In this document: positions 7,852-64,000 of the stretch, piece after piece
Position numbering within the stretch: position 1 is the first letter of the stretch
How the letters are laid out: each line of letters begins with the position of its first letter
Made by a program: the position numbers and the translations under genes
Assembly: GCA_026168455.1 (NCBI GenBank)
Contig: CM047425.1
Coordinates: 44,288,711-44,352,710 of the forward strand
DNA from: Theocolax elegans
Taxonomy: Eukaryota > Arthropoda > Insecta > Hymenoptera > Cerocephalidae
Length of the DNA: 64,000 nt
Direction of reading: 5' to 3'
The notes under the pieces: model-generated
The model's database searches: none
Told to the model about the DNA's origin: nothing
Seen by the model: the letters and a program-made list of their open reading frames with translations, nothing else

Positions 7852-7866
7852 CCACGTTGGGCGCCA
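7852..7866 (-). other. Primer-binding site, tRNA-Lys type
   Basis: On the minus strand the 5' LTR ends ..GTTACA, one base follows, then TGGCGCCCAACGTGG, complementary to the last 15 nt of insect tRNA-Lys(CTT) including CCA (tRNA sequence from memory). Confidence 0.85.
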
Positions 7867-7867
7867 A

Positions 7868-9143
7868 TGTAACGGTCACGCTGGGGATTAGGGCGTGGCG
7901 TCAAAGTCGAAATAAATGAATAGAATATATAAAATAATAGTAATTTATTATAAACTATAAATGCGGTTTGGGCGCCAGTCGCGTACGATCGCGGCGAATT
8001 TATATTACTTAAGCTCGGCTGCGTGCGAGCTGCTGCTACTTGCTGCGCGAGGGGAGGGGAGGGGAGTAAAGGGGAAGCCCACTTACGGTCAGGAGGATAC
8101 CTGGTACAAGGCGTACACCCACCTTGGCTCAGTGGAGATCGTCTCCAGGAGTTGCTGCTTATGCTCTCTCGTCAAATGCTCTGTCTCGCTCTCGTGCACA
8201 CACACACTCGAAATAATAATATACTATAATCGGTCGGCCGATGTTGCCTCGTAGGCGTCCCGATGAGCTCTCTCGAGCTCGGGCTCGTTTGCCGCTTCGC
8301 TGCTCGGGCCCGACGTGCGCGCGCAGCTTCTCGCGTCGAGTCGCCCGTCGGCCGCCGTCGTCTCGCGCGCCTCGTGTAGTGAGTGCTCGCGGCCATGTTG
8401 ATCAAGGCGGACGACGTTGCCGGGCTGCTGCTTCCCACGGAGAGGACGATGTTCCCGGTGATACTGTTAACCCGGTAAGTCTATATGATCGTTCCTCCGT
8501 GTTGATTTATCGGCTAATAGTTCCATCCTGTTTCAGGTGCAGACGGGACGGCCGATCTTCGAGTCTTCTCTCTCACTCGCTCTCACGGTGGCTGCTCAGC
8601 TGGTGCGCGTCGGGTCGGTGACTGCTGCTCTTCGTCGGCGCTGCGTTGCTGCGGGGATGCTGGCTGCTTCTCAGGTGAATATCTATCTCCCGAGGGAGTG
8701 CTGCGTATTATTTACCAATTATTAACTGAGAGTTATGGTAATGTTATGATTACCATAACCTCACTTCCAATCCTCTCCTAGCATGTAGCTGTCAGTTACT
8801 ATGTGCACTACATGCTTCCTTGTTTCCTTCTAATTAGGATTCTTATTAATTATCTAATTGTTTCACAGCTTCCTGGATGTCTTGTTGCTGCTCGTGCTGC
8901 TCCATCTGGCACCTTGGGCCATCGCAGGCTGCTTCATGTCCTGGTGCGAAGCCTCCTGGAAGTGGTATCGCCTCTCCTGATATGCTGCTTCATTGTGCTA
9001 CGTGGAGGGAATCAAGAGAAGTATTGGGGATTTGGGGAGCTTCGGGTAGGTTAGGTAGGCTTAGAGATGTGAGGGTAGGTAGGCTAGTTTATATTGGGGT
9101 TCGCTCGCTTATTACTTTGACAGGTATTACATACCTTGTCACA
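7868..9143 (-). repeat. 5' LTR of Gypsy G (1276 bp)
   Basis: Bounded by comparison with the copy at 62485-63773. On the minus strand it starts TGTGACAAGGT and ends GTTACA. It contains a conserved GGGG-run cluster (about 8050-8075), a 10-bp hairpin TTATGGTAAT/ATTACCATAA near 8734-8760, and on the antisense (plus) strand a 62-nt GTAAGT..CAG segment (8475-8536) that looks like an intron. Open frames across it are not supported as genes. Confidence 0.92.
8475..8536 (+). other. Intron-like GT-AG segment inside G LTR (antisense)
   Basis: GTAAGT at 8475 and a pyrimidine-flanked TTTCAG ending at 8536. The equivalent in the second LTR is 63097-63162 (GTAAGC..TTACAG). The segment differs much more between the two LTRs than its flanks do. 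Confidence 0.35.
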
Positions 9144-17111: not shown

Positions 17112-18506
17112 TAATGTCACAGAGATTTGCTCTAATGAAAACAACGGGAGCATATAGAACCACTTCGGCTGAGTCCATCACAATGATAACGGGTCACTTG
17201 CCGATAGATCTGGAATGTGAAAAAAGAATAGGAATGTATTACATAAGGAAGAACAAGGAATTTAAATACATGGACTATACAGACCAGACGGTGGAGAATC
17301 CTCTACCAGGCAATGAATGGAAGAGAAAATATAATGCAAGGTGTGAATTGGACAAGGAATTGAGGAAAGTGTGGCAGTCGAGGTGGGATAATTCTATAAA
17401 GGGCAGACATACATATGAGATAATGCCAAACGTGGAAGAAAGAAGGAAAAAGACGTGGCTTAAACCGAGCAAGTATCTAATGCAAATTCTTAGTGGACAT
17501 GGAAGTTTTCAAACTTTCAGGATGCGATTTAACTTTGTAGAATCAGACCTATGCAGCTGCGGAGAGACAGACTCCCCGGAGCATGTTACATGGAAATGCG
17601 TAAAGTACGAACAAATAAGACTAAAACACATGCAGGAGACAGAGGCAGGAATGAGAAACACAAAGCCTTATTGGAAACAAAGGAAGGGACCGAGAGGCTG
17701 ACAAGGATGACAAAAGAAATCTTACTCGCAAAGGATGCTACGGAAATTCTAGAAAGAGATTTAGTCGTAGACATAGTGAAACTGAACTAATGTCACAGAG
17801 ATTTGCTCTAATGAAAACAACGGGAGCATATAGAACCACTTCGGCTGAGTCCATCACAATGATAACGGGTCACTTGCCGATAGATCTGGAATGTGAAAAA
17901 AGAATAGGAATGTATTACATAAGGAAGAACAAGGAATTTAAATACATGGACTATACAGACCAGACGGTGGAGAATCCTCTACCAGGCAATGAATGGAAGA
18001 GAAAATATAATGCAAGGTGTGAATTGGACAAGGAATTGAGGAAAGTGTGGCAGTCGAGGTGGGATAATTCTATAAAGGGCAGACATACATATGAGATAAT
18101 GCCAAACGTGGAAGAAAGAAGGAAAAAGACGTGGCTTAAACCGAGCAAGTATCTAATGCAAATTCTTAGTGGACATGGAAGTTTTCAAACTTTCAGGATG
18201 CGATTTAACTTTGTAGAATCAGACCTATGCAGCTGCGGAGAGACAGACTCCCCGGAGCATGTTACATGGAAATGCGTAAAGTACGAACAAATAAGACTAA
18301 AACACATGCAGGAGACAGAGGCAGGAATGAGAAACACAAAAGCCTTATTGGAAACAAAGGAAGGGACCGAGAGGCTGACAAGGATGACAAAAGAAATCTT
18401 ACTCGCAAAGGATGCTACGGAAATTCTAGAAAGAGATTTAGTCGTAGACATAGTGGAAACTGAGGAAGAAGTGCAAACAGAAGAGTCAAGGGAAGAGAAT
18501 GAGTGA
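17112..18506 (+). repeat. 676-bp tandem duplication of the LINE C C-terminal coding region
   Basis: Unit 1 (17112-17787) and unit 2 (17788-about 18463) are almost identical. By eye they differ by two single-base losses in unit 1 (CACAAAGCC against CACAAAAGCC; AGTGAAAC against AGTGGAAAC). Both encode the tail with CSCGETDSPEHVTWKC. Unit 2 keeps the frame and ends at TGA 18506 after an acidic EEEVQTEESREENE tail. Either a very recent duplication or an assembly artefact. Confidence 0.85.
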
Positions 18507-37699: not shown

Positions 37700-38140
37700 A
37701 TTTTATTGTCTTAAAATTCGTCATAAAGGTTTCAAATAAATTAATGTAAATACGATGAGATTAAAAACTGTAATAATCTCATATTTATAACGCACGCATA
37801 TCATAGATTTAGTAAATAAATTAATAATAGTAGTAATGAATTTATTAGTCTGCGGTTAATTTAAACTTAAACAAAAATCATTTTCTTGATTGTACATTTG
37901 ATTCATACAATCAATCTCGTAAAATATATTTTGCGATTCATTCGCTTTCGCGACCTTCGCTTCTGCTATACGCACCAGCTATGTTCAGGCGCCTCGTCCG
38001 CTTCGCTCATTCACCTGTTGCATTAGTCTCGCGCGGCACCACCGCACACCTATCTTCTCTAATCCGGCCTCTGGTTGGCCCATTTCAAAAATTATTTACG
38101 CCTCGCCTAATTAATATTTTTAAAAAATTCTTTTTTAAAA
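37700..38140. other. Spacer, nothing assigned
   Basis: AT-rich with a GC-richer patch around 37960-38090; no gene or terminus recognised. Confidence 0.4.
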
Positions 38141-39984
38141 AATTTATAACTAGTTTTTGACTATAAAAAAAGATGTTTTAGACAGCATTAGGTTTCCAGA
38201 GTCCAGAGCAGAATTGCTGATTTTCACTATTCAAGGTTTAAATAGCTTACAAGTGTGTGACAGCATACATTTATGACTTTAAAAGTATTATTAATAAAAA
38301 ATTCAGAAAGTATTACAAAAAAAGTCATATTTACGTTTTTAGTGAAATATGCATCCCCTGGGAGCTACAAATTCATGAAAATGGACATACAATGCAAAAA
38401 AGTGCTAAAATGTCAATTTTGACTCTCTGTAACTTAAAATAATGGTCCCGAATAAATCTGAAAAAATTCAGGAGTACTATTGGATACCTTTAAAACATAT
38501 TCCCACAGTTATAGCAAAATTAATTTTTTTCATCTTTGATTTCACAGAAACTCACCCATATATATGGGGTATTCCACGTGAAGTGGTCCGATCAAAATTT
38601 TAAAATGCACCAAATTTTGGGTACACTTTGCAAATGTTTTTCAGAATACAGAAAAATTTTTAGGTACTGGAATCTATTTGCTCAAAAGTTATTCTAACCT
38701 CAAAACGTGAATTTTTCCATATTTTATTCAACACCAGCTGGGTTTACCGCTATATAACTCAAAATCTATCAACTTTTACTATAGAACATTATATGTAACA
38801 TTCGTTGCTAATTATATCTAGAATTTATTCTTCTGGGTTAGAATTTCTAATCTCAAGGTCAATGTTACATAAACTACATGTCAATATTCAACTTGAAAAA
38901 AATGCAAGTGCGCCACCTTGGATTTTTTCATCCAAAAGTCTAAAAGAAAGCTTGGAGCAATACCTTTCAAATGGTCTGTAGCATTTGTATGGCCTCCAAT
39001 TCTGTAAAAAGTTATGACAATTTAAAGAAACACGAAATTTTTTTAAAAATTTAAATGGGAATTACCATGTTAATTTTTGTGAATTTTTGGTCTTTCTTTA
39101 AATTGTCATAACTTTTTACGGAATTGGAGGCCATAAAAATGCTACAGACCATTTGAAGGTATTGCTTCAAGCTTTCTTTTAGACTTTTGGATGAAAAAAT
39201 CAAAGGTGGCGCACTTGCACTTTTTTCAAGTTGAATATTGATATGTAGTTTATGTAACATTGACCTTGAGCTTAGAAATTCTAACCCAGAAGAATAAATT
39301 CTAGATATAATTAGCAACGAATGTTACATATAATGTTCTATAATAAAAGTTGATAGATTTTGAGTTATATAGCGGTAAACCCAGCTGGTGTTGAAAAAAA
39401 TATGGAAAAATTCACTTTTTGAGGTTAGAATAACTTTTGAGCAAATAGATTCCAGTACCTAAAAATTTTTTTCTGTATTCTGAAAAACATTTGCAAAGTG
39501 TACCCAAAATTTGGTGCATTTTAAAATTTTGATCGGACCACTTCACGTGGAATACCCCATATATATGGGTGAGTTTCTGTGAAATCAAAGATGAAAAAAA
39601 TTAATTTTGCTATAACTGTGGGAATATGTTTTAAAGGTATCCAATAGTACTCCTGAATTTTTTCAGATTTATTCGGGACCATTATTTTAAGTTACAGAGC
39701 GTCAAAATTGACATTTTAGCACTTTTTTGCATTGTATGTCCATTTTCATGAATTTGTAGCTCCCAGGGGATGCATATTTCACCAAAAACGTAAATATGAC
39801 TTTTTTTGTAATACTTTCTGAATTTTTCATTAATAATACTTTTAAAGTCATAAATGTATGCTGTCACACACTTGTAAGCTATTTAAACCTTGAATAGTGA
39901 AAATCAGCAATTCTGCTCTGGACTCTGGAAACCTAATGCTGTCTAAAACATCTTTTTTTATAGTCAGAAACTAGTTATAAATTT
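38141..39984. mobile_element. Nested foldback palindrome (outer arms plus GGGGTATTCCACGTG element)
   Basis: A near-perfect palindrome of 1844 bp centred near 39062 with about 70 bp unpaired. The inner element 38574-39556 has termini GGGGTATTCCACGTGAAGTGG and complement, flanked by ATATAT. The outer arms (38141-38573 and 39557-39984) are also complementary and recur at 40794-41213. No coding capacity; the 61-codon frame repeated in the outer arms is a by-product. Confidence 0.85.
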
Positions 39985-40793
39985 CCAGAGTGGGTTTAAA
40001 TCATTAAGATCACTTATAGTCAAAATATCTGGGAAAAGTGCCCGAAATATTATTAGAAATGTATATTTGTTGCCTTATAACGATGAGTCTATTAGCATAA
40101 TCATTGTAAAAAAGTTTATGCACTTACCTTGGAGTAGTAGAAATATATCTCCACTTATTTCAGTACCTGTCTAATCCCCTGTAAGCTGCTAAAAATACAA
40201 ATATTATTATACAATTATAAAAAATTAATGTATAATGCTAGATTTCCAATTTTACAACCACTTTAAGAATTATGATACTAATCTAAAGGATTACTATAAC
40301 TATATTAATATTATTATTACAATAACTGAAGATACGAATTTAATACAAAAAAAATATTAACAAATCAGATCTGACATTATAATGATTAATATGATTAATT
40401 GACATTGACAAGTTTGTGAAATTCAAACAATGTATTGCTGAATAATAATAATGATAATGTTGATACATTTATAGTAATCCTTCATATTAGTAGTATAATT
40501 CTTGTAAGGGTTGTAACACAAAAACTCCAGCATTTTAAATGGTTAACAATTAATTTTTTATAATTGTATAATAATATTTGTATTTTTAGCAGCTTACAGG
40601 GGATTAGACGGATACTGAAATAAGTGGAGATATATTTGTACTACTCCAATGTAAGTGCATAAATTTTTTTGCAATGATTATGCTAATAGATTCATCATTA
40701 TAAGGCAACAAATATACATTTCTAATAATATTTCGGGCACTTTTCCCAGATATTTTGACCATAAGTGATCTTAATGATTTAAACCCACTCTGG
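39985..40793. mobile_element. Foldback palindrome 'B' between outer-arm copies
   Basis: CCAGAGTGGGTTTAAATC at 39985 returns as complement ending at 40793. Arms contain CAGGGGATTAGACNGGTACTG-like and TTGTTGCCTTATAA segments. The flanks on both sides are the AAATTTATAACTAG end of the outer-arm repeat. Confidence 0.8.
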
Positions 40794-41215
40794 AAATTTA
40801 TAACTAGTTTCTGACTATAAAAAAAGATGTTTTAGACAGCATTAGGTTTCCAGAGTCCGGAGCAGAATTGCTGATTTTTACTATTTAAGGTTTAAATGGC
40901 TTAAAAGAGCTTGACAGCATACATTTATGACTTTAAAAGTATTATTAATGAAAAATTCAGAAAGTATTACAGAAAAAGTCATATTTACGTTTTTAGTGAA
41001 ATATGCATCCCCTGGGAGCTACAAATTCATGAAAATGGACATACAATGCAAAAAAGTGCTAAAATGTCAATTTTGACACTCTGTAACGTAAAATAATGGC
41101 CCCGAAAAAATCTGAAAAAATTCAGGAGTACTATTGGATACCTCTAAAACATATTCCCACAGTTATAGCAAAATTAATTTTTTTCATCTTTGATTTCACA
41201 GAAACTCACCCATAT
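40794..41215 (+). repeat. Third copy of the outer-arm repeat
   Basis: Same orientation as 38141-38573; ends CACCCATATATAT exactly where the short solo LTR is inserted. Confidence 0.8.
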
Positions 41216-41219
41216 ATAT
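41216..41219. repeat. TSD ATAT of short solo LTR (left)
   Basis: ATAT on both sides of the LTR (41216-41219 and 41441-41444), within a longer AT repeat. Confidence 0.6.
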
Positions 41220-41440
41220 TGTGACAAGGTAGACTTAATCCACTTATCATAGATGCCAGCAATACCGACACCGCGAGGCGGCGCGGTATCGGTAGCATAT
41301 AAGAGCAATAAGCAGGCGCTACGACCAGTGCGGGCGTAGCGCAGTGGTTAGCGTGAACGCCTTCGGATCCGAAGGGGCTCGGGTTCAAGACCCGATACCC
41401 GCTTCATTTTTTATTCAGCAGTTACAAGTCTCATGCCACA
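41220..41440 (+). mobile_element. TRIM-like solo LTR carrying a tRNA-like module (221 bp)
   Basis: Starts TGTGACAAGGT, ends GCCACA, and is flanked by ATAT duplications. A second copy (62242-62461) ends GTTACA and is followed directly by a TGGCGCC primer-site start, which identifies these as LTRs of a small LTR element. It contains a TATAAG box (41298-41303), a 73-nt tRNA-like sequence (41330-41402) and T6 (41407-41412). TRIM elements are known in ants; LTRs bearing an RNA-gene module recall plant Cassandra (5S rRNA), but here the module is a tRNA. Confidence 0.85.
41330..41402 (+). ncRNA. tRNA-Arg(TCG)-like sequence inside LTR
   Basis: GCGGGCG...TACCCGC forms most of an acceptor stem. The D arm GCGC/GCGT and a T arm TCGGG-TTCAAGA-CCCGA are intact. 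A box TAGCGCAGTGG (41337-41347) and B box GGTTCAAGACC (41382-41392) fit Pol III promoters. The loop CTTCGGA and 3' half-stem TCCGA match insect tRNA-Arg(TCG) (from memory), but the 5' half of the anticodon stem no longer pairs. So it is a tRNA-derived module, not a working tRNA. A Pol III-type T6 follows. Confidence 0.75.
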
Positions 41441-45755: not shown

Positions 45756-46309
45756 GTTGGACGCCATGTAACGATAAGACGCCGGAACATATTTCTGAAT
45801 TAATAAATCCTGAAACTTAAAATGGCTATTGCCAGAGTCAATCTTTGTACTAGTTTACTGCGCTATGTGTGTAGTTCCTATTTTTCGCACAATCTAACTA
45901 ATGGATTCGACGCGTTGCTCAGGTGACTGGCTTACAACTTTTATTATACTTATATCTCCGATCGATTTCCAGGTTCGCGACATTTGTAACCCATACTAAC
46001 ATGAAATATTTATACTGTTTAAGATACAATTTATAAGAAAATTTTTTTAAATATTATTCATTACATACCTGGTCAGTTTCGCCTTCGGAAGTGGCTTTGT
46101 TTTAATGTTAAAGAAATGTTACAATTTTACTATATTAATAAAAGAAACTTTTAGTAAGTCTACTATTCTATTTGACTTTGTCTTCCTCATTTAATTTTCT
46201 TATTTCATATTTTATAAAAACTTTTCCAAAGTTTACGAAGCATTTAGTGTAATTAAATTAAATAAAATGAAATAATTAAAGTAGTGTACTATTACCAGAT
46301 AATTTAAAC
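45756..46309 (-). repeat. Possible 5' LTR of the old Gypsy relic
   Basis: On the minus strand ..GTTACA is followed by TGGCGTCCAAC (45756-45766), a one-mismatch version of the tRNA-Lys primer site, so an LTR should begin at 45767 (plus-strand TGTAACGATAAG). The far end was not identified. Confidence 0.4.
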
Positions 46310-46831
46310 TTAAGGGGATGTCGGAGCTATAGCCTCCATAAAAAGCCGCTCGATCTCTCGGTTTCGAATGGCGCTGTAGTCAGGTGTCGATTTCTACGAT
46401 AAACGTACTTAAAACATAAATTATAAATTTTACAGCTACATAGAGCTGTTGAAAGATACTTTCCCCCCTAGCTATGACTAAACTTAAGGTAATTATAATA
46501 TTACTCTTGGAAGCAAATGTTTATTTTTTTAAAGAAATGTGAAATACGTCTCATATTCAATGAATCTATATCTGCCGTAATGCTACACGCAACGTATTTC
46601 ACATTTCTTTAAAAAAATAAACATTTACTGCCAAGAGTAATATTACATTTATCTTAATTTTAGTCATAGTTACGGGGGAAAGTATTTTTCAACAGCTCTA
46701 TGTAGCTATAAAATTTATAATTTATGTTTGAAGTACGTTTATCGTAGAAATCGACACCTGACTACAGCGCCATTCGAAACCGAGAGATCGAGCGGCTTTT
46801 GATGGAGGCTATAGCTCCGACATCCCCTTAA
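46310..46831. mobile_element. TTAA-flanked palindromic MITE
   Basis: GGGGATGTCGGAGCTATAGCC (from 46314) has its complement ending at 46827; TTAA flanks both ends (46310-46313, 46828-46831). Arms of about 240 bp, about 35 bp centre, no ORF. The TTAA duplication is characteristic of piggyBac-type elements, but the terminal bases are not typical, so the superfamily is uncertain. Confidence 0.75.
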
Positions 46832-47270
46832 GATATATAGTAACGATTAATATTATAGTCAATTATATTATATTGCTCGTTACGTTCTCTCTCTCTCTCT
46901 GTCTAGACTGTGTATTAATATTTACAGCTATTACAGGTCGACGTTCGATGATTTTCGGCGATTCTCGCGGACCTTCGTAAAGGTAAAAGTAGGGAAACAG
47001 AGAGTTTTCGGTTTGTAAGTCCGAGAGCACTGAAACTTATTTCGACCGGCGAGAAACTCATTTCAACATTCGAAAGAATAATTTTCGATTTTTCGTTTCG
47101 CGTGTCTATATTGACAACAGCTCACGTTACGTTCATCTGGGTGCTTTGTGGGTGTTTAAATTGCTTAGTGCATTTAATTGTCATCCCCCTCTTCGCATTG
47201 GTTTTGGTTGGCGACCTCGCACACCTATATACAAAAAGGAATTACAGATTCCTTATTGCGACCATCGCAC

Positions 47271-47478: not shown

Positions 47479-48582
47479 TGTAACGGTAAACGGTTCACGC
47501 GAGACGAAAATCGTACCGATCGCGTGAGTCTACCGTTGAAGACGCGTAAGGCGCATGCGCGAGCGCGTCAGAGAGCCGGTGTGCACGATACACCGGCAGT
47601 ATTGTTCGAACCTCGATCGAGCGCGATTCCGCGAGTAAACAGAGAGGAGGTACAACTGAGAATCGAGCGAGAGAAAGAGACGACGGAGAGACAAGTGGAA
47701 GGAGAGAAAGAGACGACAGAGAGACAAGTAGGAGAAGAGAGAGAGAGAGAATCGGACGCCAAGACGTAGCCCAACCAGGTCGTCTTGAAGTACAAGTAAG
47801 TCCTGGCCAGACGTGCGCGAATACCCGCGAGTAACGTAAAGTGAGGTTAGCGACGGGATACGCACGGTATCCCGACGGGCGAGTCAATCGAGAGAATAGC
47901 CGCTCTCGTCGCGTCTCTCTCTCCGCAGCTTAGGCGCGTACACGGCAAACCGGAGTGCTTAACACTCCGGCACGACCCTAACCGCGTCAACCCGTTTTGC
48001 AGCCAGGTAACTCGTACCTGGCGAATCGTCCTCGTCCTCGAGATCGACCAACCCGTCTAATCTTAACGCGAATAGCGGCGGGCGCGCACACACGAGTATT
48101 TGTTATCAACCTAATAGTTGTTTATTTTCGGGCCAAGGAATAGCATTGCCTTGGCTTGACCTTGTATTTATCATAGGTGGTTATTACACCGTTCATCTCA
48201 TTTAATTATAATAAACTCGTTTTGTAATCGTATACACGGTATAACATCTTATTAGTTTCCCGATAGACCCTATCCCGAAGGCGAATACCGCCATGCCCCG
48301 CGGGTGTCGTGCATTGCACTTCGCACGACACATAGCTGAGTAGCCGAGCACGAGTATTGACGGAGGATAAGTGTGTACAAGGTAGGTACGCACGCTGTAC
48401 ACAGGGAAGACGTCATCGTGCGGAGCTTGAGGCTAGCTCGCACCACTCCAAGGACGGTTCTGCCGATCGGTTAGCTGTCTGGTAAAACAGCTGATCATTA
48501 TACCGAGAGTATTTCCTGTGCATTGAGGATATGCACAGGACAATCAAAAACCTCCCGACGAGTAAAAATCAACCCTGTTACA
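47479..48582 (+). repeat. 5' LTR of Gypsy element 2
   Basis: TGTAACGGTAAAC ... CCCTGTTACA. Includes a purine-rich minisatellite GAGAAAGAGACGACNGAGAG at about 47668-47750. Long minus-strand frames across it are composition artefacts and repeat in the 3' LTR. Confidence 0.92.
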
Positions 48583-48584
48583 AC

Positions 48585-48596
48585 TGGCGCCCAACA
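48585..48596 (+). other. Primer-binding site of Gypsy element 2
   Basis: TGGCGCCCAACA, two bases after the LTR; the first 11 bases match the tRNA-Lys complement. Confidence 0.75.
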
Positions 48597-49881
48597 CGTG
48601 AGTTTCCTTGGGATAGGGAAAACTATTACGAATAAAACGTGAGTTTCCTCGGAATAGGAAAAACCTTTTCAAATAATTTTGTACTTCGGACGTTGTTTTA
48701 GATATAAACCGCAACAAGTGGTTGCGAGTACGTTGCGAGTTCGTCGCGACGAGCACATGTAAACAACAACACGAGTCGAGTACAATCGAACAGAATTCTT
48801 GGAATTAACTCGAAATAATACTTATTATTTTCGATTTAAATTAAATTTAAAATAGGAGTTAGATAAATTTGCCAAAGTAATAATTTATAACATATATAAA
48901 TTTTATAAACAAATTAAAGTTTTCCCAAATTTTCCCAAAATTTAAAAATTTTCCAAATTTTCCGAAATTTTCAATTTTTTTTCAAAATTTAAAAATTTTC
49001 AGAATTTTCGAATTTTTTCAAAATTTTCGAATCTGCTCAAATTTTTTGGAAGTTTTCAAATTTTTCCAATTTTTTCGGAATTCGTAACTTTTTCCGAATT
49101 TTTCGAATCATTTCGGAATCCTCGAAAAGGTATTTTTTTTGTGGAAATCTGGGAAAATTTTTAAATCAAATAGGACGATTTCACAAACCGAAAAATAAAG
49201 TGTGTGCGTCGGAAAATTACGAGCGCTAGAACGATACCCTTAGAATTGTAATTTCTCGTTATATATTTCTGCGTAGCATAATAGGCGAGAGAGAGACAAT
49301 AGATTTGGTGTAAAGTGTACGCTAAGCTATAACCAATTATTAATTAGTTAATTAATTGGCATTAAAGTATTATTAAAGAAGTAAAAAGAATACTAATATT
49401 AAATATTTTATAAAATTTGTTTTTTTTTCTTAATTAAATTAATTAAAATTTTTTCTGTGGCACGCCTCAATAAATTTTAATTGACGTGCTGAAAGATTGT
49501 GTGGGCAAAAATAAAACACTTATTATTTATTCGGGTTATTTTAATTTTTTAAATAAAAAAGAGGTGATAGTAACACCCACATTTAATATTTATTATTTAA
49601 TTATTAAATTCCTACTCTGGTATAATCAAACCAGATTCGCACTAACCCACACAACCTCACCTTAGCGTACACGGTAGGACGAAGCCAGAGCAATCCGATA
49701 ATTAGGCCGTATAGTCCGTATATATATATATTTTTGTATTTTGCGATTGTAATTGTGCGCCTTAGGGAAAACGCGAGCGAACGACCCCACGATAGCCGCG
49801 CAATTGAACTGCTCTGGTAAAGCGAATTAAATTATTTTTTATATTTATTGTAAATTATTTATTTAAATCGTTATTATAAAT
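48597..49881 (+). other. AT-rich leader of Gypsy element 2
   Basis: About 1.3 kb, dominated by TTTTCC/AAAATTTT-type low-complexity sequence at 48900-49130; no ORF. Confidence 0.6.
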
Positions 49882-51681
49882 ATGGCGTGTTCGACACAAC
49901 AGAAGATCGAAGACTGGTGCTTGTTTTATAGAGACAAAGATATATGTCAATATCTTAACGACCTGTCACTTAAAAATATAGGCAATAAATTTGACAAGCT
50001 AGGTCGTCTGACAAAATGGCTCCTAGGAGATTACGAGCCAAGGGATTTCGTCGAAGAACCTGAGCAAGATGAAATCACCGTTTGGCAACATCGGGAAGAA
50101 CTCAGGCAAAATTTTATCACAAAATATAGCTCGGCAGAACACCCGTGGGAGAACTCGACAATCGACGACAACACAAGCCATCCATTATTAACTCTTAACA
50201 ACGATGAAGGAGTTAAAGACAATATGGAAACGAGTCGTAGAAAAGTCCATCAATATCCACATAACGAAACCACGGCAAGATTGCAAGAAACCACGGAATC
50301 AACATCAACGAATGATAAAGCTGCCGACAGTATTACAAACGATGATCAACATCCAAGCAGAATAAGACTCACTGCAACAGACGGAGGATCATTCGAAATC
50401 CCACTAGAATTCTCAAATTTTATGCAAGGAATGTCAGACACAGTTAAGCAATTAACTGAAAAAGTAAACGCGCTGACAGCAGCGCAAGTACAGCCTATTT
50501 TAACAAGCACTAGACTGGACCAGCCACTACACGAAGTCCGTAGCCAACGACAGCAAGTAGGATTCCAGGACACAATGACGTACCATTACCTGGACAATAC
50601 AACCGAATTACCACAACCTGACCCCCCAACACCACTCGCAAGGAGAGTCGGCCAAGCCTGGGAGGGGGGAACTTCCAAGGTCAGGAAAGACTTGGAAATA
50701 CGAGTGGTACCAGGACCGAGAACAGCACCTGGCAGAGAAGTGCAGGACAGTCGCTGAGAGACGTCGGTCAAATTGTCCGGAAATGGGGACTACAGTTCTC
50801 AGCAGATGGCGACCAGAGCATAGACTCATTTCTCGAGCGAATCGAGGAATGTCGGATTCTGGCCAATCTTTCAGAATCCGAATTGCTAAGCTCACTGCCA
50901 GAGTTATTCAAAGGCGTTGCAGCACTCTGGTTCAAAAACGAAAGAGATATTCCAAAAAGAAGTTCGTCACTGGTTCGGAACGAATAGGCGGTTTCAGAAG
51001 AGGTTGATTGCCGAAATAAATTCTCGCTATCAAGGACCTGGCGAGAAAACGCGAGATTACATCACATGCCTAGTCCACATGATAAGAAGACTTGATCCAA
51101 TCCCAAGGATCGAGCAGCAGTTAGATACACTGCACGGCAACCTGCGCCCCGAAATACAGAATTTGGTGCGCAGGACGGATTGCGATTCAATCCATACTCT
51201 TCTCGATCTTGCTGTCGAAGCCGAGCTTACGCTGGAGGGACAGAAAGCGTATAGACAACCTCCGCCACCCGAGACTGCCCTAATCCCCGAGTCGGCTTAT
51301 AAACCGAAGGAGGAAAAGAGGGCCAAGACGAAGATTGCAGCGGTGCAGCCGACAGTACCAAATCTGCAGACCAAGAAGAATCCGCCAGAGGACTTGGCGA
51401 AAACCCTGGCCAAAGTTGTCGAAGAGAAAATGAGAGAATTCGTCCTTTCGATGACCACATCCCGAGGCGGAATTGGCAAACCGAGGGAACCAAATCGAAC
51501 CAAGAGTACGAAGGGTTCCGCCGAAAGGACGTACGGCGGATCGAAAGAGAAAACAGACAATCAGAACGTGAGCGCAAGACCGCAAGACACACAACCATTG
51601 AAATGCTTTGGTTGCGGACGAATAGGGTATAAGCGCGCAGATTGTCCGGACTGTTCGGGAAACGCAAACAGGAGCGGTTGA
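49882..51681 (+). pseudogene. gag: Gag of Gypsy element 2, frameshifted
   Basis: Starts MACSTQQKIEDW at an ATG. Readable segments: 49882-50757, then from 50755 another frame with VGQIVRKWGLQFSADG and ALWFKNERD, then after an indel in an A-run near 50945-50960 a third frame with VRHWFGTNRRFQKRL to TGA 51681. The C-terminus has a single knuckle CFGCGRIGYKRADC with Tyr in place of the usual His, then PDC. Two frameshifts make it non-functional. The end overlaps pol at the slippery site. Confidence 0.85.
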
Positions 51682-52364
51682 AAAGGGTCGTTCCCGTTCC
51701 TACCCCGCGTAAGACCCGAACAGATATCCCGATCACAACGGAGCGTTGTGAGGAGAGCTCGGCAACAAAAGAGTCGTCGGAAGTGCCGACGACATCGGCT
51801 GAGTCCGAGAGAGATAGCGGCTGTCTCAGCCCGAATTCTGTGGGATCGACGGAAAAGTCAGATCAACACCAGATAGCGGCCGCTACCAGAGATCATGATG
51901 ATAGGGCTAGAGGAGAAGACCCTCCGAGTGAAAAAGAAACTCGTTGGTGGGTCCAAGTGGGCATTGCCGGCTACCGCGTACGCGCCTTGTTCGATACGGG
52001 AGCATCGCGCACGGTAATGGGTTCGATTGGTCTACAATTGGCCACGGCTTGCGGCTGTCCACTCATCCCAAGCAACGGAAGGAAAGCCAAAGTGCCAGGG
52101 AACCAGACGGTAGCGATCGCTGGTTACGTAGACCTGCCTTTCGAGGTTGCCGGGATAAAGCGAGATATTCGCGTAGCCGTACTTCCGGACGATCAAATCG
52201 ACTGTTACGTCGGAGCGGACTTCATCCGTGGTTTTGGCGCAGTTTTGGATCCAAACGAGAATAAACTTTGGATCAAAGCGGCCAACAAGTCTGTAGATAT
52301 GGAAGTAGCGAGCATATCGCGAATCGATGCGTTCGAGATAGCATCGATCGGACTAGCAAACTTA
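51642..52364 (+). CDS. pol: Gypsy element 2 pol, protease segment
   Basis: In the -1 frame relative to gag; the effective N-terminus is the frameshift point. A Ser/Glu-rich linker precedes a retropepsin with canonical VRALFDTGASRTVMG and a flap-like AIAGYVDLPF, then YVGADFIRGFG. An in-frame TAG at 52365-52367 ends it. Confidence 0.85.
51657..51697 (+). promoter_or_regulatory. -1 frameshift site of Gypsy element 2
   Basis: GGGAAAC at 51657-51663 lies in the gag frame as TCG GGA AAC; a -1 shift gives GGG AAA in the pol frame. Six nucleotides later AGGAGCGG can pair with CCGTTCCT (one G-U pair), an 8-bp stem. Confidence 0.78.
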
Positions 52365-52367
52365 TAG

Positions 52368-53390
52368 CCAGAGGTGCAAGAAAGACTGCATACACTGGCT
52401 GACCGATACCTGGGTACAACGGGGAGGCCGTTGGGATGTACATCTCTCATTGAGCACGCGATCGACGTGGGTGCGACGCGGCCAATCAAACAGAAATATT
52501 ATCCCGTCTCTAAGCGAATAGAGGAAGAGATGCACGCCCAGGTTAAGGAGATGCTCGACGCGGGGGTGATCGAGCCATCAACCAGTGGATGGTCGAGCCC
52601 CGTAGTAATGGTCCGTAAACCTAACGGGAAGTATCGGTTCTGTATTAACTATCGGAAGGTCAATGCAGTGTCGAAAACCGATGCTTACCCGCTGCCTAAC
52701 ATGGACGACATACTACGGAAGCTCAAAAACGCGAGGTACATCAGCACGCTAGACTTGAGTAGCGCGTACCACCAGATACCGCTAAGACCGGAGTCAGCGG
52801 CTATAACCGCGTTCACAGTACCTGGGCTAGGTTTATTCCAATTTAAAAGGATGCCTTATGGCCTATCCCAGGCGGGAGCCACGTTCCAAAGGTTAGTGGA
52901 CAAAATCATAGGGCTTGAGCTCGAGCCCTATGCATTTTCGTACCTCGATGATATAATCATCGCCACAGAGACCTCCGAGGAACACAAAAAGTGGCTAAAG
53001 TATGTCCTGAAGAGAATCAACGAGGCTAGTCTCACGGTGAATCGGGATAAGAGCGTATTTGGACGTACTGAGGTAAAATATCTCGGTGTGCTGGTGAACC
53101 GCGATGGAATCAGGCCAGACCCCGAGAAAATCGAGCCGATCATCAATTATCCGGCGCCCAAGAATCTAAAACAGCTGAGAAGATTCTTTGGTATGAGTTC
53201 GTGGTACCGGAAATTCTTATGAGACTTTGCTACCTTGGCCGAGCCGCTGACAAGGCTTACCAAGAAGGACCGTAAGTTTGAATGGCTCGAGGAGCAGCAA
53301 CAGGCATTCGATCAGATTAAGGCGCTGATCGCAACTGCTCCCGTCCTAGCGAGGCCAGAGTTCGATGTGCAGTTTGTCATACAAACGGAC
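52368..53390 (+). pseudogene. pol: Gypsy element 2 reverse transcriptase and RNase H stub
   Basis: Same frame as the protease after the TAG. RT blocks: CINYRKVN (Asp of the usual CIDYR is Asn), LDLSSAYHQIPL, catalytic YLDDIIIA, then FGMSSWYRKFL, TGA at 53220-53222, and an RNase H beginning (FDVQFVIQTDVS) that stops at the deletion junction near 53390. RT core residues are intact but the chain is interrupted. Confidence 0.87.
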
Positions 53391-53392
53391 GT

Positions 53393-54397
53393 GAGCTGAA
53401 AAATAAGGCCGTCGACGAATACCTTCAAGAGGTGGGGATACATCATACCACCACTCCGCCATATTTCCCCCAAGCGAATCCGGTTGAACGCGCCAACCGA
53501 ACGCTGAAAACCAGGATTGTGGCTTTCATCGAAGAAAACCACAATACCTGGGACGAGAAGTTGCCGGAGCTTGTATTCTCGCTGAATAACACCGTCCACG
53601 AGTCGACGGGTACAACTCCGGTAATGCTGAATTACGGACGAGAGCCTATGCCTCCTGGCACCATCAAGAGGAACCAAGAACAGGCTGGCATAGAAGAGGA
53701 GCAGCACCATAAGATAAAATTGTGGCAAGAGCGACTTCGAAAGCTCAGGGAAGTACATGAGTCTGCAGCTGTACGTTCAGATCAACAGCATGAGCGACAA
53801 GTGAGCTATTACAATGCTAAAAGGAGGGACACACCTTTCGCCGTAGGAGATCTGGTGTGGAAAAAGAACAGAGTCCTGTCCTCAGCAGCTCAGGGTATTT
53901 CGGCTAAGCTGGCTGCGAAGGCGACAGGTCCGTACATCATAATAGGCCAACCAGGATCCAATACTTACACGTTGTTGGATAAAGAAGGTAAAGTGACCGA
54001 CCTGGCATACGCCGAACACCCAAAACACTGCATTTCACCGAATCTCGACGTAGATGAAGGAAAACATCCGCCGAGGGACATCGTGGGAGAAGGGGCGACG
54101 CGCGACCCGCCCCATGCGAGCGTACAGTCACCAAATTGCGTGCGGACTCCTGCGCGAGTCATAGCGGGTGACACCAGCGTGCGAGAACTGACTCCTGCAA
54201 GAGTCAAAACGCCGGATGTACGAAAACGCGGCCGTCCGCGAAAATCGGCAAAAACCGTCGCGAGACCCCACGGGAAGAACATAGCGAAACGCGGTGTAGA
54301 GAATAATGACGTCGAATCCGTACTCGGGAGATCAGGATCATCGGTAGTCCCTAGAAAGACGCGCGCGCAAGCGAAGCGACAATTAAAAATGTATTAA
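53393..54397 (+). pseudogene. pol: Gypsy element 2 integrase C-terminal remnant
   Basis: Enters in a different frame after the deletion. It retains PPYFPQANPVERANR with the catalytic Glu, but the zinc domain and both catalytic Asp are gone. The C-terminal part (AVGDLVWKKNRVLS) and an AT-hook-like RKRGRPRKSAK tail remain. Ends at TAA 54397. Confidence 0.85.
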
Positions 54398-54752
54398 TCG
54401 TAACATAAGTAATTTGTTGACGTGGACGGATGACAATACTGCACCCGATTCAACGAGTTCGCCGTCGAAAAGACCAAAGAGCACTAACGCTATTTTGTGT
54501 GTGGTTGGCAGGGGACACATAACCTATGTACATGCCCCAGTCGGTCGAACCACCACTAGCTAAGTCAGAAAGAGTCGATAGCTCCTGACAAATCTGAGTC
54601 AGGACGAGATCACCAGGGTAAAAATCCCCTGGCTATCGAAATCGTGAAATAAAGCGATTTCAGTCAGTATCAGACCCCTAACCACATCCTAACGCGTCTA
54701 GGAAAGGTCAGAGCATGATATATAGGAATATACCTTGCGTCTGGAAGGGGGG
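54398..54752 (+). other. 3' untranslated region and polypurine tract of Gypsy element 2
   Basis: Non-coding, ending GGAAGGGGGG just before the 3' LTR, the expected plus-strand primer. No ORF3 like that of element G. Confidence 0.7.
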
Positions 54753-55854
54753 TGTAACGGTAAACGGTTCACGCGAGACGAAAATCGTACCGATCGCGTG
54801 AGTCTACCGTTGAAGACGCGTAAGGCGCATGCGCGAGCGCGTCAGAGAGCCGGTGTGCACGATACACCGGCAGTATTGTTCGAACCTCGATCGAGCGCGA
54901 TTCCGCGAGTAAACAGAGAGGAGGTACAACTGAGAATCGAGCGAGAGAAAGAGACGACGGAGAGACGAGTGGAAGGAGAGAAAGAGACGGCAGAGAGGCA
55001 AGTAGGAGAAGAAAGAGAGAGAGAATCGGACGCCAAGACGTAGCCCAACCAGGTCGTCCTGAAGTACAAGTAAGTCCTGGCCAGGCGTGCGCGAATACCC
55101 GCGAGTAACATAAAGTGAGGTTAGCGACGGGATACGCGCGGTATCCCGACGGGCGAGTCAATCGAGAGAATAGCCGCTCTCGTCGCGTCTCTCTCTCCGC
55201 AGCTTAGGCGCGTACACGGCAAACCGGAGTGCTTAACACTCCGGCACGACCCTAACCGCGTCAACCCGTTTTGCAGCCAGGTAATCGTACCTGGCGAATC
55301 GTCCTCGTCCTCGAGATCGACCAACCCGTCGAATCTTAACGCGAATAGCGGGGGGCGCACACACACGCGTATTTGTTATCAACCTAATAGTTGTTTATTT
55401 TCGGGCCCAGGAATAGCATTGCCTTGGCTTGATCTTGTATTTATCATAGGTGGTTATTACACCGTTCATCTCATTTAATTATAATAAACTCGTTTTGTAA
55501 TCGTATACACGGTATAACATCTTATTAGTTTCCCGATGACCCTATCTCGAAGGTGAATACCGCCATGCCCCGCGGGTGTCGTGCATTGCACTTCGCACGA
55601 CACATAGCTGAGTAGCCGAGCACGAGTATTGACGGAGGATAAGTGTGTACAAGGTAGGTACGCACGCTGTACACAGGGAAGACGTCATCGTGCGGAGCTT
55701 GAGGCTAGCTCGCACCACTCCAAGGACGGTTCTGCCGATCGGTTAGCTGTCTGGTAAAACAGCTGATCGTTATACCGAGAGTATTTCCTGTGCATTGAGG
55801 ATATGCACAGGACAATCAAAAACCTCCCGACGAGTAAAAATCAACCCTGTTACA
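54753..55854 (+). repeat. 3' LTR of Gypsy element 2
   Basis: Near-identical to 47479-48582, followed by TSD GTTA. Confidence 0.92.
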
Positions 55855-57298
55855 GTTACTAACACGCTTAGTTATCGAAGATATGCCGTTAACGATTATT
55901 CTATTCATCTGGGCGACTTCGTCAAGGGAGACTCTACCTAGGGATAAAGGGACGGCCGCTAAATTAAAGTAGACATCCTTCGGGATGTACTACGTGCAGC
56001 GTCAAAATACTGAGGTGGGCCTTACGAGGTCCGCCTTGGGGCACATCCCGACCGAAGTAGTTTCTCATCCAGACGAAAGTTGCTGGGATGTCTCACAGAA
56101 GGGTGGCCCTTTCACAAAAATCTCTTCGTATAAAGTCAGTAAGTCGAGTTGTGACACACTTTGCGTTGGGTGAGATGTTAAAAACACCTTCGCGTACAAA
56201 CTTTTGTTTGTACGCGATTTTTCTCTCTTTCAAGGGATTTTTCGTATGGTATCCCTTCGAAGGCTTGTAGAAGGATTGTCGAATGTTTTATCCTTCACAA
56301 GCTATAGTGTACAAGCCTTTTGCTTTTTACGCTTTTTTCTCTTTCAGGGGATTTTTTAACGGTATCCCTAAATGTTCGAACGTTGGGCCCCCTACCGCAA
56401 AACCTCCCCGGGGATCCGGGGAGTAATAGGGAGATGTGCTTCGGCATGTCGAAAGTTGGACCAATATGACTTTACTGTGGTACACGGGGACTGGGTACGA
56501 GCCCCACGTCGGCGTACCTCTGTGTCAAAGTGAAACGCTGGCGTGTCCCAGGAGGGTTGGACTCTGTGTGGTATGTGGTTGCAAACAGGCTTGACGGGTT
56601 AAGCATGGTTGACCCGGATGCCGCTTATGTTCGAAAGCGGAAGACGGCGGGGAACTAAACACCGCCGCATCCCTACCGAGGATTACGACTTAAGGCAAAC
56701 CGTCAAAAGGCGGCGAGCTATCGTAAAGAGTTTTGGTACACTTACTAAGTGGCCTCTCATCGGGGCTAATCGATGCCATAGGAGGCTCTCAGAGAGTTTC
56801 ACTTTTCGAACGCATCGGGGAAGCTTTAGGCACCATCGCCGACAAGGAAAATCAACCAACTGTGAAGCTTAGATGACAAGGGCTTCCGGGGCAGCAAATA
56901 CTGCGGATTGATGCGGTGATATTGCCCTAAGGAAAGACTCTAAGACAGTCATAGAATACATGTAAGTGTCAGTTTAGTAGTCTCTCTCTCTTTATCTCTT
57001 TATTATTTTCGTGTATCGACCTGCGATCTCGCGAGCAGCGGCACGCGTGTATTATCTCTTTTTTTGATAATCGATTATTGCCTCTATTTTAAAGTAAATA
57101 TCACGTTTTCACTCTTGTTATTTGCCCTTTATTTTCTTTCGCGTTCGCTAAGTAAAGGATATCGCCGCCTCCGCCTATACGTGTCTTATAGACTTGTATT
57201 ATTACTGAGCGGCAGATCGCATAATGAGACTATTGTTATAACGGTAGTTAAATGTTATTATTTTATTTATTATTATTAAAAATTGCAAATCCGTTACA

Positions 57299-57312
57299 TG
57301 GCGCCCAACGTG
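57299..57312 (+). other. Primer-binding site of LTR Y element
   Basis: TGGCGCCCAACGTG immediately after CCGTTACA; matches 14 bases of the tRNA-Lys complement. Confidence 0.8.
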
Positions 57313-58252
57313 CAAGGTGATTAGCGTTACGCGTATTATTTATAATTAATAGTCTGAAAAATTAATTTTCAATATTCAAAAATTTTCAATTTAGTCGATG
57401 TACGTGTAAAATTAAGAGATCTTATTTCGAACATTTCGAGAACGAGCGAGCGCATTGTTTACGTTTGGCGGTGATTAGCGGTGTTTACGCTACAAATAAT
57501 ATTCGAATATTGTAACTTTTAAACATTTCGAAAATATTTTTTTGAATCCTATATTATTTGAATTTTAAATCGCTTTGTTTTCGATTTAATAATAGCAAAT
57601 TCAATTATTTCGTCTTTCTTTTATTTATTTATTTGTTTTTTAATTATTAGCGACACCGCGGAAAATAAAATTATTGTGTTTTAATAATTTTTCGTAAGCT
57701 GTATAATCGCAATTTAGGTTGATTTAGTCCATTTCGCGTGCGTGCATGTAAGTGTGTGTGTGTGTGATATACGCGGTAAATATAAGTATTGTAGCGTATT
57801 GCGGTATAATGATGTATGTGTATGTAAGCGTGTGCGTAAATATAGTAAATTGATTCATTAATAACTGAATTTAATTTTTTTTATTATTCTTATTATTATT
57901 AAATTAGTAAAATAATTTTTATAGCGTTTCTTCGCAATTCAAAATTTAGCTTTTTTTAACAATTGTTATCTTTAAACAATTTGTTTTCAAATTCTGTTAA
58001 ACTTTGAATATTAAATTTGTTAATTCAATTTAATTCTATTTTTGTAAACAATTGGAAAATTTATATTAACAAATTGCAGATTTGTAATATTTTGTTTTTT
58101 GCAAATTAGTTGATTTTATTAAATTTAAGGTGGTTAAGCGAATTTGCGTATAATTTAATAGCGATTTGCAATTATTTTGTAAATTGTTTGATAAATTATT
58201 TAATTGTAAGAATTTATTTTGCCAATAAGGCCTAAAATTTAAATTTATACAA
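57313..58252 (+). other. AT-rich leader of the LTR Y element
   Basis: Highly AT-rich, no ORF; the element body is not found downstream. Confidence 0.5.
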
Positions 58253-58475
58253 CGCGTGTATTATCTCTTTTTTTGATAATAGATTATTGCCTTTATTTTA
58301 AAGTAAATATCGTGTTTTCACTGTTGTTTTTTGACCTTTATTTTCTTTCGCGTTCGCTAAGTAAAGGATACTGCCGCCTCCGTCTATACGTGTCTTATGG
58401 ACTCGTATTATTACTGAGCGGTTGATCGCATAATGAGACTATTGTTTTAACGGTAGTCAATATATGACATTACAC
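58253..58475 (+). repeat. Partial copy of LTR Y (R-U5-like part)
   Basis: Matches 57041-57252 (TATTATCTCTTTTTTTGATAA, ATTACTGAGCGG, CGCATAATGAGACTATTGTT) and ends near ATTACA. With 46839-57298 and the short leader it may be all that is left of one internally deleted element. Confidence 0.7.
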
Positions 58476-62237: not shown

Positions 62238-62241
62238 TCGT
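62238..62241. repeat. TSD TCGT of the LTR composite (left)
   Basis: TCGT at 62238-62241 and again at 63774-63777, immediately outside both ends of the composite. Confidence 0.8.
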
Positions 62242-62461
62242 TGTGACAAGGTGGATTTAATCCACTTGTCATAGATTTCAGCTATACCGACACGCTAGGT
62301 GGCGCGTGTTCGGTAACATATAAGAGCGATAAGAAGCGCTACGACCAATTGCGGGCGTAGCGCAGTGGTAGCGTGAACGCCTTCGGATCCGAAGGGGCTC
62401 GGGTCAAGACCCGACGCCCGTTCCTTTTTTTAATTTGTAGCAAATGAGTCTCATTGTTACA
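62242..62461 (+). repeat. Short tRNA-bearing LTR, copy 2 (220 bp)
   Basis: TATAAG at 62319-62324, tRNA-like 62351-62421 with A box TAGCGCAGTGG, oligo-T 62425-62430. Compared with copy 1 it has single-base losses in the D and T loops, but its acceptor stem pairs better. Confidence 0.85.
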
Positions 62462-62483
62462 TGGCGCCCCACGTTGGGCGCCA
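62462..62483. other. Palindromic double primer-binding site
   Basis: TGGCGCCC at the left serves the plus-strand short LTR and GGGCGCCA at the right serves the minus-strand G LTR. Positions 62466-62483 equal the 3'-terminal 18 nt of tRNA-Lys(CTT) including CCA (tRNA sequence from memory). Confidence 0.8.
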
Positions 62484-62484
62484 A

Positions 62485-63773
62485 TGTAACGGTCACGCTG
62501 GGGATTAGGGCGTGGCGTCAAAGGCGAAATAAATAATTAGGTTGAATAAAATAATATTTATTATAATTACACTATAAAAGAAGTTTGGGCGCCAGCCGCG
62601 TACGATCACGGCGAATTTATATTTTATGCTCGGCTGCGTGCGAGCTGCTGCTACTTGCTGCGCGAGGGGAGGGGAGGGGAGAAACAGGGGAAGCACACTT
62701 ACGGTAGGAAGGTGACTATTATCCGCTGCAACTATCGCAAGGCGTACACCCACCTTACTATCGAGGAGATCGTCTCCTGGAGATTGCTGCTCTACGTTCG
62801 ATTGCTCTCGCTCTCTAGTGCACACACACACACACTCAAAAATATATCTAATCGGTCGGCCGATGTTGCCTCGTAGGCGTCCCGATGAGCTCTCTCGAGT
62901 TCGGGCTCGTTCGCCGCTTCGCTGCTCGGGCCCGACGTGCGCGCGCAGCTTCTCGCGTCGAGTCGCCCGTCGGCCGCCGTCGTCTCGCGCGCCTCGTGTA
63001 GTGAGTGCTCGCGGCCATGTTGATCAAGGCGGACGACGTTGCCGGGCTGCTGCTTCCCACGGAGAGGACGATGTTCCCGGTGATGCTGTTACCCAGGTAA
63101 GCCTATATGATCGTTCCTCCGTGTTGTATAATGTATCGGCTAATGAGTCTGCTCTGTTACAGGTGCAGACGGGACGGCCGATCTTCGAGTCTTTTCTCTC
63201 TCTCTCGCTCTCACGGTGGCTGCTCAGCTGGTGCGCGTCGGGTCGGTGATTGCTGCTCTTCGTCGGTGCTGCGTTGCTGCGGGGATTCTGGCTGCTTCTC
63301 AGGTGAATATCTATCTCCCGAGGGAGTGCTGCTTATTATTTACTAATTATTAACTGAGAGTTATGGTAATGTTATGATTACCATAACCTCACTTCCAATC
63401 CTCTCCTAGCATGTAGCTGTCAGTTAGTATGTGCACTACATGCGTCCTTGTTTCCTTCTAATTAGGATTATTATTAATTATCCAACTGTTTCACAGCTTC
63501 CTGGATATCCTGCTGCTGCTCGTGCTGCTCCATCTGGCACCTTGGGCCATCGTAGGCTGCTCCATGGACCTGGTGCGAAGCCTCCCAGAAGTAGTATCGC
63601 CTCTCCTGACATGCTGCTTTATTGTGCTACGAGGAAGGAGCCAAGAGAAGTATTGGGAATTTAGGGAGCTTCGGGTAGGCTAGGTAGGCTTAGAGATGTG
63701 AGGGTAGGTAGGTTAGTTTATATTGGGGTTCGCTCGCTTATTAACTTTGACAGGTATTACATACCTTGTCACA
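62485..63773 (-). repeat. G-type LTR, copy 2 (1289 bp)
   Basis: Closely similar to 7868-9143 along its length, with indels mainly in the intron-like segment 63097-63162 and near 62690-62850. No G internal region is attached. Confidence 0.9.
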
Positions 63774-64000
63774 TCGTCTATGTGTGGTCATAGAGAAATA
63801 AATTCAGGACCGTTTATAAATACTGGATTCAAAATAAATAGATGAATTGTTTTTGTTATGAGGCTTTTCGGTGTTGGACGAGAAGGTATCAATGTGTTTT
63901 GTGGACTTATAGATATATATCAAGGTTTAGCAAAATCAACGTATGATCAAATTGTGCAGCATTTATATACAGCGTCAAAATCAATGTTCAAAAGAGTTTG

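Follow-up and report, generated by a model that had tools for sequence, protein, structure and literature searches.

How two unlike long terminal repeats (LTRs) come to face each other within one target-site duplication (TSD) is the question raised by a unit near the right end of the window, the 64,000-nucleotide stretch of Theocolax elegans DNA analysed here. In this study, we report that the unit consists of the LTRs of two different retrotransposons, placed head to head through a 22-nt centre derived from tRNA-Lys, and that it likely arose by annealing of tails, extension and integration. The structure of the unit, its parent elements and the occurrence of the same joint throughout the genome are described, and the ways in which such a joint may form are weighed.

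Results

Structure of the unit

Direct reading of the window bore out the original prediction that the two LTRs form one face-to-face unit, the TCGT flanks on both sides being identical (Table 1). LTR-A measures 220 bp and the inverted LTR-B ~1.29 kb (1289 bp). Their outer ends had been claimed to be alike, and both indeed read TGTGACAAGGT. When the window was searched for TGTGACAAGGT with up to one mismatch, for which 0.73 matches were expected and four were reached in 1 of 100 shuffles, four matches were obtained, all of them perfect and all of them LTR starts. The clear resemblance of the two LTRs lies in these first 11 bases, weaker local matches having E values of at least 1.5. An imperfect palindrome directly follows TGTGACAAGGT in both LTRs (62242-62275 and 63740-63773), perhaps a shared integrase-binding shape.

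Table 1 Features of the head-to-head unit and of an ordinary copy of Gypsy G in the window
Feature	Position	Strand	Basis or remark
LTR of an ordinary G copy with its 15-nt primer site	7852..9143	-	Element interior extends to left window edge
TSD, left copy TCGT	62238..62241	.	Sequence; same as 63774-63777
LTR-A, LTR of Helenus type; U3 start faces outward and U5 end meets the centre	62242..62461	+	Sequence comparison; solo copy at 41220-41440
tRNA-like stretch within LTR-A	62351..62422	+	Rfam RF00005, 32.0 bits (gathering score 29)
22-nt centre, read as two 18-nt tRNA-Lys tails with 14-nt overlap	62462..62483	.	Predicted product of one register only; 27 exact genome copies
18-nt tail of LTR-B, minus-strand reading TGGCGCCCAACGTGGGGC	62466..62483	-	Bases 16-18 unlike primer site of ordinary G copies
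Single spacer base between centre and LTR-B	62484
LTR-B, inverted LTR of Gypsy G	62485..63773	-	96.7% to G copy at G000:C4:71845841
TSD, right copy TCGT	63774..63777	.	Sequence

The centre reads TGGCGCCCCACGTTGGGCGCCA; the window has a single pair of TGGCGCC and GGCGCCA no more than 30 nt apart, and none of 100 shuffles has one. In agreement with the earlier claim that 62466-62483 equals the last 18 nt of tRNA-Lys, this stretch is the exact complement of the primer site for tRNA-Lys, TGGCGCCCAACGTGGGGG/C, as given in PMC4261875. GCCC of the 18 nt can be assigned to the LTR-A side too, so that the window locus alone is no proof of a tRNA copy; that proof is supplied by other loci. We propose to define a head-to-head strong-stop pair by outer ends that are both U3 starts, a 22-nt centre and one TSD. 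The window unit shows all three; several other units are bounded on one side by a U5 end or by an additional LTR.

Parent elements

Elements of the LTR-A kind have already been described as Helenus TRIMs (PMC10886601). LTR-A shares with Helenus (TRIMp3 of Kojima 2024, PMC10886601) an LTR that is short and contains a tRNA-like stretch, a 4-bp TSD and a tRNA-Lys primer, and the hosts listed in that work include parasitoid wasps, with Gypsy as the proposed helper. The 4-bp TSD of animal Helenus was found as TCGT at the window unit and as ATATATAT, which is of low complexity, on either flank of the solo LTR at 41220-41440 (plus strand), which belongs to the LTR-A family. The tRNA-like stretch of the solo copy (41330-41403) scored above the Rfam gathering score, and the tRNA match at locus L050 reached 39.2 bits. 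Large overlapping inverted repeats occupy 38140-41219, and one of them stops at 41219, the base before the solo LTR.

The Gypsy G copy that ends at 7852-9143 carries a gag-type zinc knuckle and protease, reverse transcriptase (RT), RNase H and integrase domains, the last four in the order of Gypsy elements. The closest solved structure to its RT is that of Ty3. Among the named protein matches, the best was to Trichogramma kaykai, a parasitoid wasp (48% over 85%), and the others were to ants and beetles.

Two further families recur in the joints described below, F0 with an LTR of 213 bp and F1 with an LTR of 1.1 kb. At locus L044, F0 has a primer site at 237, a polypurine tract (PPT) before 516 and a second LTR reaching to 727-728; judged from this sequence, F0 appears to have the TRIM layout of short LTR, primer site, PPT and LTR, and to be ~0.7 kb long if the first LTR is counted. 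Box A- and box B-like words were seen by eye in the F0 LTR, and the Rfam match (E 0.1) was absent at L044, L048 and L052.

Other repeats were also noted in the window. A full Gypsy element at 47479-55854 has LTRs that are 98.3% alike, GTTA on both sides and an 11-nt tRNA-Lys match at its primer site. A pair of ~206-bp repeats at 57043-58457, with TGGCGCCCAACGTG at 57299, is probably another tRNA-Lys-primed element. A 0.5-kb inverted repeat lies at 46309-46832 (Rfam microRNA matches below threshold), and a ~675-bp tandem duplication, 99.7% alike, lies at 17112-18463.

Occurrence of the joint in the genome

The window unit is not a lone case, as the search for further inverted LTR-primer site-LTR units that had been suggested with it showed. 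The genome (658 Mb in 1277 contigs, with the window at C1:44288711-44352710) was searched with the centre pattern, allowing either base at the two mismatch sites, and matches with up to two mismatches were found at 90 places, comprising 27 exact, 19 one-mismatch and 44 two-mismatch matches. The reversed pattern, used as a control, had no match in the genome. All 27 exact loci were read, together with 5 of the 19 one-mismatch and 2 of the 44 two-mismatch loci.

By their inner ends, 48 of the 54 arms of the exact units could be assigned to families, and six were unclassed. Mixed pairs, each with one short LTR (F0 or Helenus), made up 25 of the 27 units. F0 was paired with F1 in 11 units, with F3 in three, with unclassed arms in five and with itself in one; the Helenus LTR was paired with B in two units, with F6 (a family defined by three like ends only) in three and with an unclassed arm in one; and one unit was F1-F1. 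Among the one-mismatch loci read, the LTR arms were known in three of five (L057, L058 and L061). The remaining two (L059 and L060) matched none of the five LTR probes and were omitted from the unit counts; they are near-copies of one locus whose centre ends in ACCA, an ending found in 5 of the 19 one-mismatch matches.

Spacing was examined with a pattern made up of TTACA, up to 3 nt, TGGCGCC, 0-30 nt and GGCGCCA, which gave 52 strand matches at 29 places and detects a joint only if TTACA stands on one or both of its sides; its control gave none. With 0-30 nt allowed between the half-sites, the centre was 22 nt long in 28 of these 29 joints and 21 nt in the other. At the mismatch sites of the exact units, the strand of the left arm was kept in 13, that of the right arm in 13, and one was mixed, as expected from a mismatched duplex. 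The sole mixed centre (AACGTT; L042, 2501-2522) forms a perfect palindrome of 22 nt.

Outside this genome, the joint with LTR ends had no match in viral contigs, the 22-nt centre had none in viral or prokaryote contigs, and neither the Helenus core nor the start of LTR-B matched anything in the collections searched. The 18-nt tail matched one viral contig (L001).

Origin of the 18-nt tail

At the primer sites of ordinary copies, the match to tRNA-Lys extended over 7-15 nt; it reached 18 nt in 1 of the 51 sites read, and that site is itself an odd joint. For G, the original prediction of a genomic primer site matching only 15 nt holds for the copy in the window. Among 11 ordinary G copies read (the window and ten other places, counted without L031, which the script did not match), TGGCGCCCAACGTGGTTT was present in ten and a variant with the same TTT in one, and none had GGC at positions 16-18. 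The genome holds 377 LTR-primer sites of the F1/F3 type and 241 of F0, units included in both counts. None of 20 F1/F3-type sites read outside units had the full 18-nt match, their matches being 7-11 nt (one of the 20 resembles an F0 site), and 19 of 20 such F0 sites likewise matched over 7-11 nt. The remaining F0 site (L091/L110; G000:C1:34211750-34212200) has a full F0 LTR, then exactly 18 nt copied from tRNA-Lys, then DNA unlike other F0 copies, and is an 18-nt tail joined to something else.

Since the ordinary F0 and F1/F3 primer sites are without ACGTGGGGC, the ACGTGGGGC in the centres of the F0-F1 and F0-F3 units is absent from the primer sites of their ordinary parents. The tail is thus longer than the primer sites of ordinary copies, and this sequence comparison strongly supports the view that its 18 nt were most likely copied from the tRNA.

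Longer copies were found at two other loci, on the letters that we take the T loop of the primer tRNA-Lys to have. At L109 (G000:C1:46448120-46448260), the end of a Helenus LTR is followed by TGGAGCCCAAC, and the tRNA copy of 22 nt runs past A58 into the T loop, after which the tail returns to the end of a Helenus LTR; at L108 (G000:C1:48354500-48354640), a 23-nt copy past A58 follows sequence of no assigned family. The possibility that these are tRNA genes was rejected, as ARAGORN detected none and L109 is the tail of a Helenus LTR read past A58. In HIV-1, stops at positions 55 and 54 have been described when A58 is incompletely methylated (PMC13191261).

Proposed pairing of the tails

The joints suggest the following scheme. 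Plus-strand synthesis would begin at the PPT and copy the primer tRNA up to the methylated A58, leaving a tail of TGGCGCCCAACGTGGGGC. The last 14 nt of two such tails could pair (12 of 14 bases, with both 3' ends paired) and prime each other, and reverse transcriptase would then extend the paired strands through each LTR as far as the U3 end, leaving a U3 end on either side of the product. The integrase of the element would accept two U3 ends and insert the product as one linear DNA. The scheme would also require that a small Helenus-type element meets its helper Gypsy in one particle, which would account for the units being mostly mixed. The same joint may also be fed by longer plus strands and by template switches at a later step.

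When the 17 possible overlaps of two 18-nt tails (2-18 nt) were tested, only the 14-nt register combined 12 pairs with four consecutive paired bases at the 3' end. When both tails are extended in this register, a 22-nt centre results, one strand of which is exactly 62462-62483, and GCCCAACGTGGGGC, the last 14 nt of the tail with 12 of 14 bases paired, therefore fits as the pairing stretch. The same centre can also be derived from one tail of 6-8 nt and one full tail, or from 7-8 nt of LTR-A end-joined to the genomic primer site of G; the window locus alone thus leaves the choice undecided and the 14-nt pairing unproven. The pairing energy of the tails (-15.0 kcal/mol) was equalled or undercut in 335 of 2000 shuffles, and an equally good 3'-anchored register arose in 432 of 20000, so the energy is not special. 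According to the original prediction, two tailed plus-strand DNAs of different elements were joined through GGCGCC, extended and integrated as a unit. The recurrence of the units, their fixed joint and their shared 4-bp flanks support this mechanism, with the exception of GGCGCC as the pairing stretch, which was rejected because its product would be an 8-nt centre.

Outer ends and variant units

The outer ends could be placed for 16 of the 30 units (14 exact units, L058 and L061), the 14 units without located ends and the two imperfect matches described next counting against the proposed mechanism. With a shift of up to 4 nt per end allowed for the best match, the 4-bp flanks were identical in 14 of these 16 and agreed at three of four bases in two (L037 and L061). 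L054 and L055 are situated in AT repeats, the left end of L043 was found with the help of the TSD, and L063, which fits ATAT in an AT-rich stretch, was not counted. When ends were set by family starts alone, before inspection of the TSD, both ends were obtained in 11 units, seven of which had identical 4-bp flanks. The remaining four are not plain, having a PPT-like run outside both LTRs (L041) or one (L039), or a further LTR outside (L044 and L049). Separate TSDs for the two LTRs, which had been named earlier as a test of the unit, were not seen, the window unit sharing TCGT.

Several units are more elaborate. L044 consists of F3, the centre, an inverted F0, primer site, inside, PPT and F0 within AGAT, and L064 of F1, the centre, an inverted F0, an inverted PPT and, further on, a PPT and F0 within GGAC. 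L049 has an F0 fold-back at its left and lies within TATT, and the left end of L045, L046 and L058 is an inverted F1 U5 end. These variants look like products of further template switches before integration. The claim that both partners are strong-stop DNAs does not hold for every unit: beyond the LTR, some arms include a PPT, a primer site or an entire TRIM, so that longer plus strands and further template switches appear to be involved as well. In the same-family pairs (L053, L056 and L061) the arms are unequal; perfect palindromes may have been lost from the genome or the assembly.

Discussion

Alternative explanations

The same pathway could operate with a smaller pairing, an early-stopped tail with 6-8 nt of the tRNA being primed by a full tail through 2-4 nt (GCCC/GGGC) and the rest filled in. 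This would give the identical centre without mismatches, but in all 27 exact units a short tail would have had to meet a full one even though the spacing is constant, and the mixed centre of L042 is better explained by a mismatched duplex, a point mutation being possible there too; we consider it unlikely. A distinctly improbable source is a nuclear event in which two double-stranded LTR DNAs (or 5' LTR ends) are end-joined or recombine at the common primer-site sequence before being integrated. Some template-switch-like joints do adjoin units, and the genomic primer site of G together with 7-8 nt of that of LTR-A gives the window centre by blunt or 1-nt joining. Joining would, however, scatter the spacing, which was observed to be fixed, and the genomic primer sites of F0 and F1/F3, being without ACGTGGGGC, cannot supply the centres of those units.

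That a few founder units arose once and then multiplied as elements deserves as little credence as end joining. F0-F1 pairs were seen 11 times and L059 and L060 resemble copies of one locus, whereas a founder origin fits poorly with eight kinds of pairing, with F0-F1 units that differ in the orientation of the kept strand, in extra parts and in outer ends, with F1 arms that are 76-95% alike among six F0-F1 units, and with arms of the two Helenus-B units that are 84.5% and 90.9% alike, against 96.7% between LTR-B of the window and an ordinary G copy. A deletion between the primer sites of two neighbouring opposite insertions would also leave an LTR, primer sites and an inverted LTR. Two different TSDs would then be expected, identical flanks having a chance of 1 in 256 each and being found in 14 of 16 units, and both breakpoints would fall within 18 nt of the LTRs with a probability of ~7e-5 to 7e-4 per unit, given even breakpoints and assumed lengths. 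Such a deletion is refuted for units with a shared TSD and tRNA-copied bases, and overall it is barely conceivable. Hardly any room is left for an assembly artefact either: all of the evidence comes from the assembly, but misjoins produce neither the agreement of 4-bp flanks outside the LTRs, seen in 14 of 16 units, nor one fixed joint across many families.

Significance of the joints

Joining of tailed plus strands thus stays the preferred reading, and tail-to-tail pairing is probably a regular side road of reverse transcription, by which a tRNA with near-self-complementary last 18 nt glues strong-stop DNAs of different elements into head-to-head LTR pairs that can be integrated and leaves a heritable record of particle sharing between TRIM and helper. 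Strong-stop DNA, usually regarded as an intermediate or a dead end, appears here in heritable form at dozens of sites in one genome. Because the joint retains a copy of the tRNA, the genome also records where the plus strand stopped on its primer, at 18 nt in the joints and at 22-23 nt at two other loci.

Where the partner in a mixed unit belonged to a named family, it was F1 or F3 in all 14 units with F0 and B or F6 in all five units with the Helenus LTR (Fisher p 9e-5, for a grouping made post hoc and with six mixed units with unclassed partners omitted). Such joints would directly show which helper mobilises which TRIM and, if the scheme is true, it predicts which primer tRNAs cause head-to-head joints in other species.

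Comparison with known systems

Like the units, solo LTRs and 2-LTR circle junctions are LTR-only structures without internal genes, but a solo LTR is single, and in a circle junction U5 abuts U3 with no primer-site sequence at the centre. Among the papers listed by full-text literature searches, which lay mostly outside subscription journals, none describes inverted LTRs paired through a joint copied from tRNA. Helenus elements are 311-1263 bp at full length and consist of LTR, primer site, PPT and LTR in direct orientation (PMC10886601), whereas here a single Helenus LTR stands opposite the inverted LTR of another element; the main text of that paper, in which the word 'inverted' occurs 0 times, describes no inverted LTR pairs.

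In Ty3 and Ty1, plus strands start more than once, and the first, which extends into the tRNA and copies it (for 12 nt in Ty3), becomes displaced and accumulates (PMC5371799). The genomic primer site of Ty3 is not renewed from the tRNA, the tRNA-bearing strong-stop DNA being a dead end (PMC5371799), and this non-renewal fits the short genomic primer sites found here. The dead-end DNA of Ty3 and Ty1 is like the arms of our units in consisting of an LTR and a copy of the primer tRNA end, and it is abundant in particles (PMC5371799). In contrast to the 12 nt and the dead end of Ty3, the strong-stop DNAs here carry 18 nt and would have been paired and integrated; by analogy, the 12-nt copy of Ty3 would count against the 18-nt tail model.

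The compound insertions described in Triticeae (Sabot and Schulman 2007, PMC1950507) are similar in that two elements are fused in reverse transcription and share one TSD. As described there, these compounds belong to one family, run in one direction, have a common central LTR and a switch at R, and have neither inverted LTRs nor a tRNA-copied joint. Where the Sabot-Schulman complex has three direct LTRs with the outer two alike, the units of this study have two unlike, inverted LTRs, and what the two structures have in common is the single TSD.
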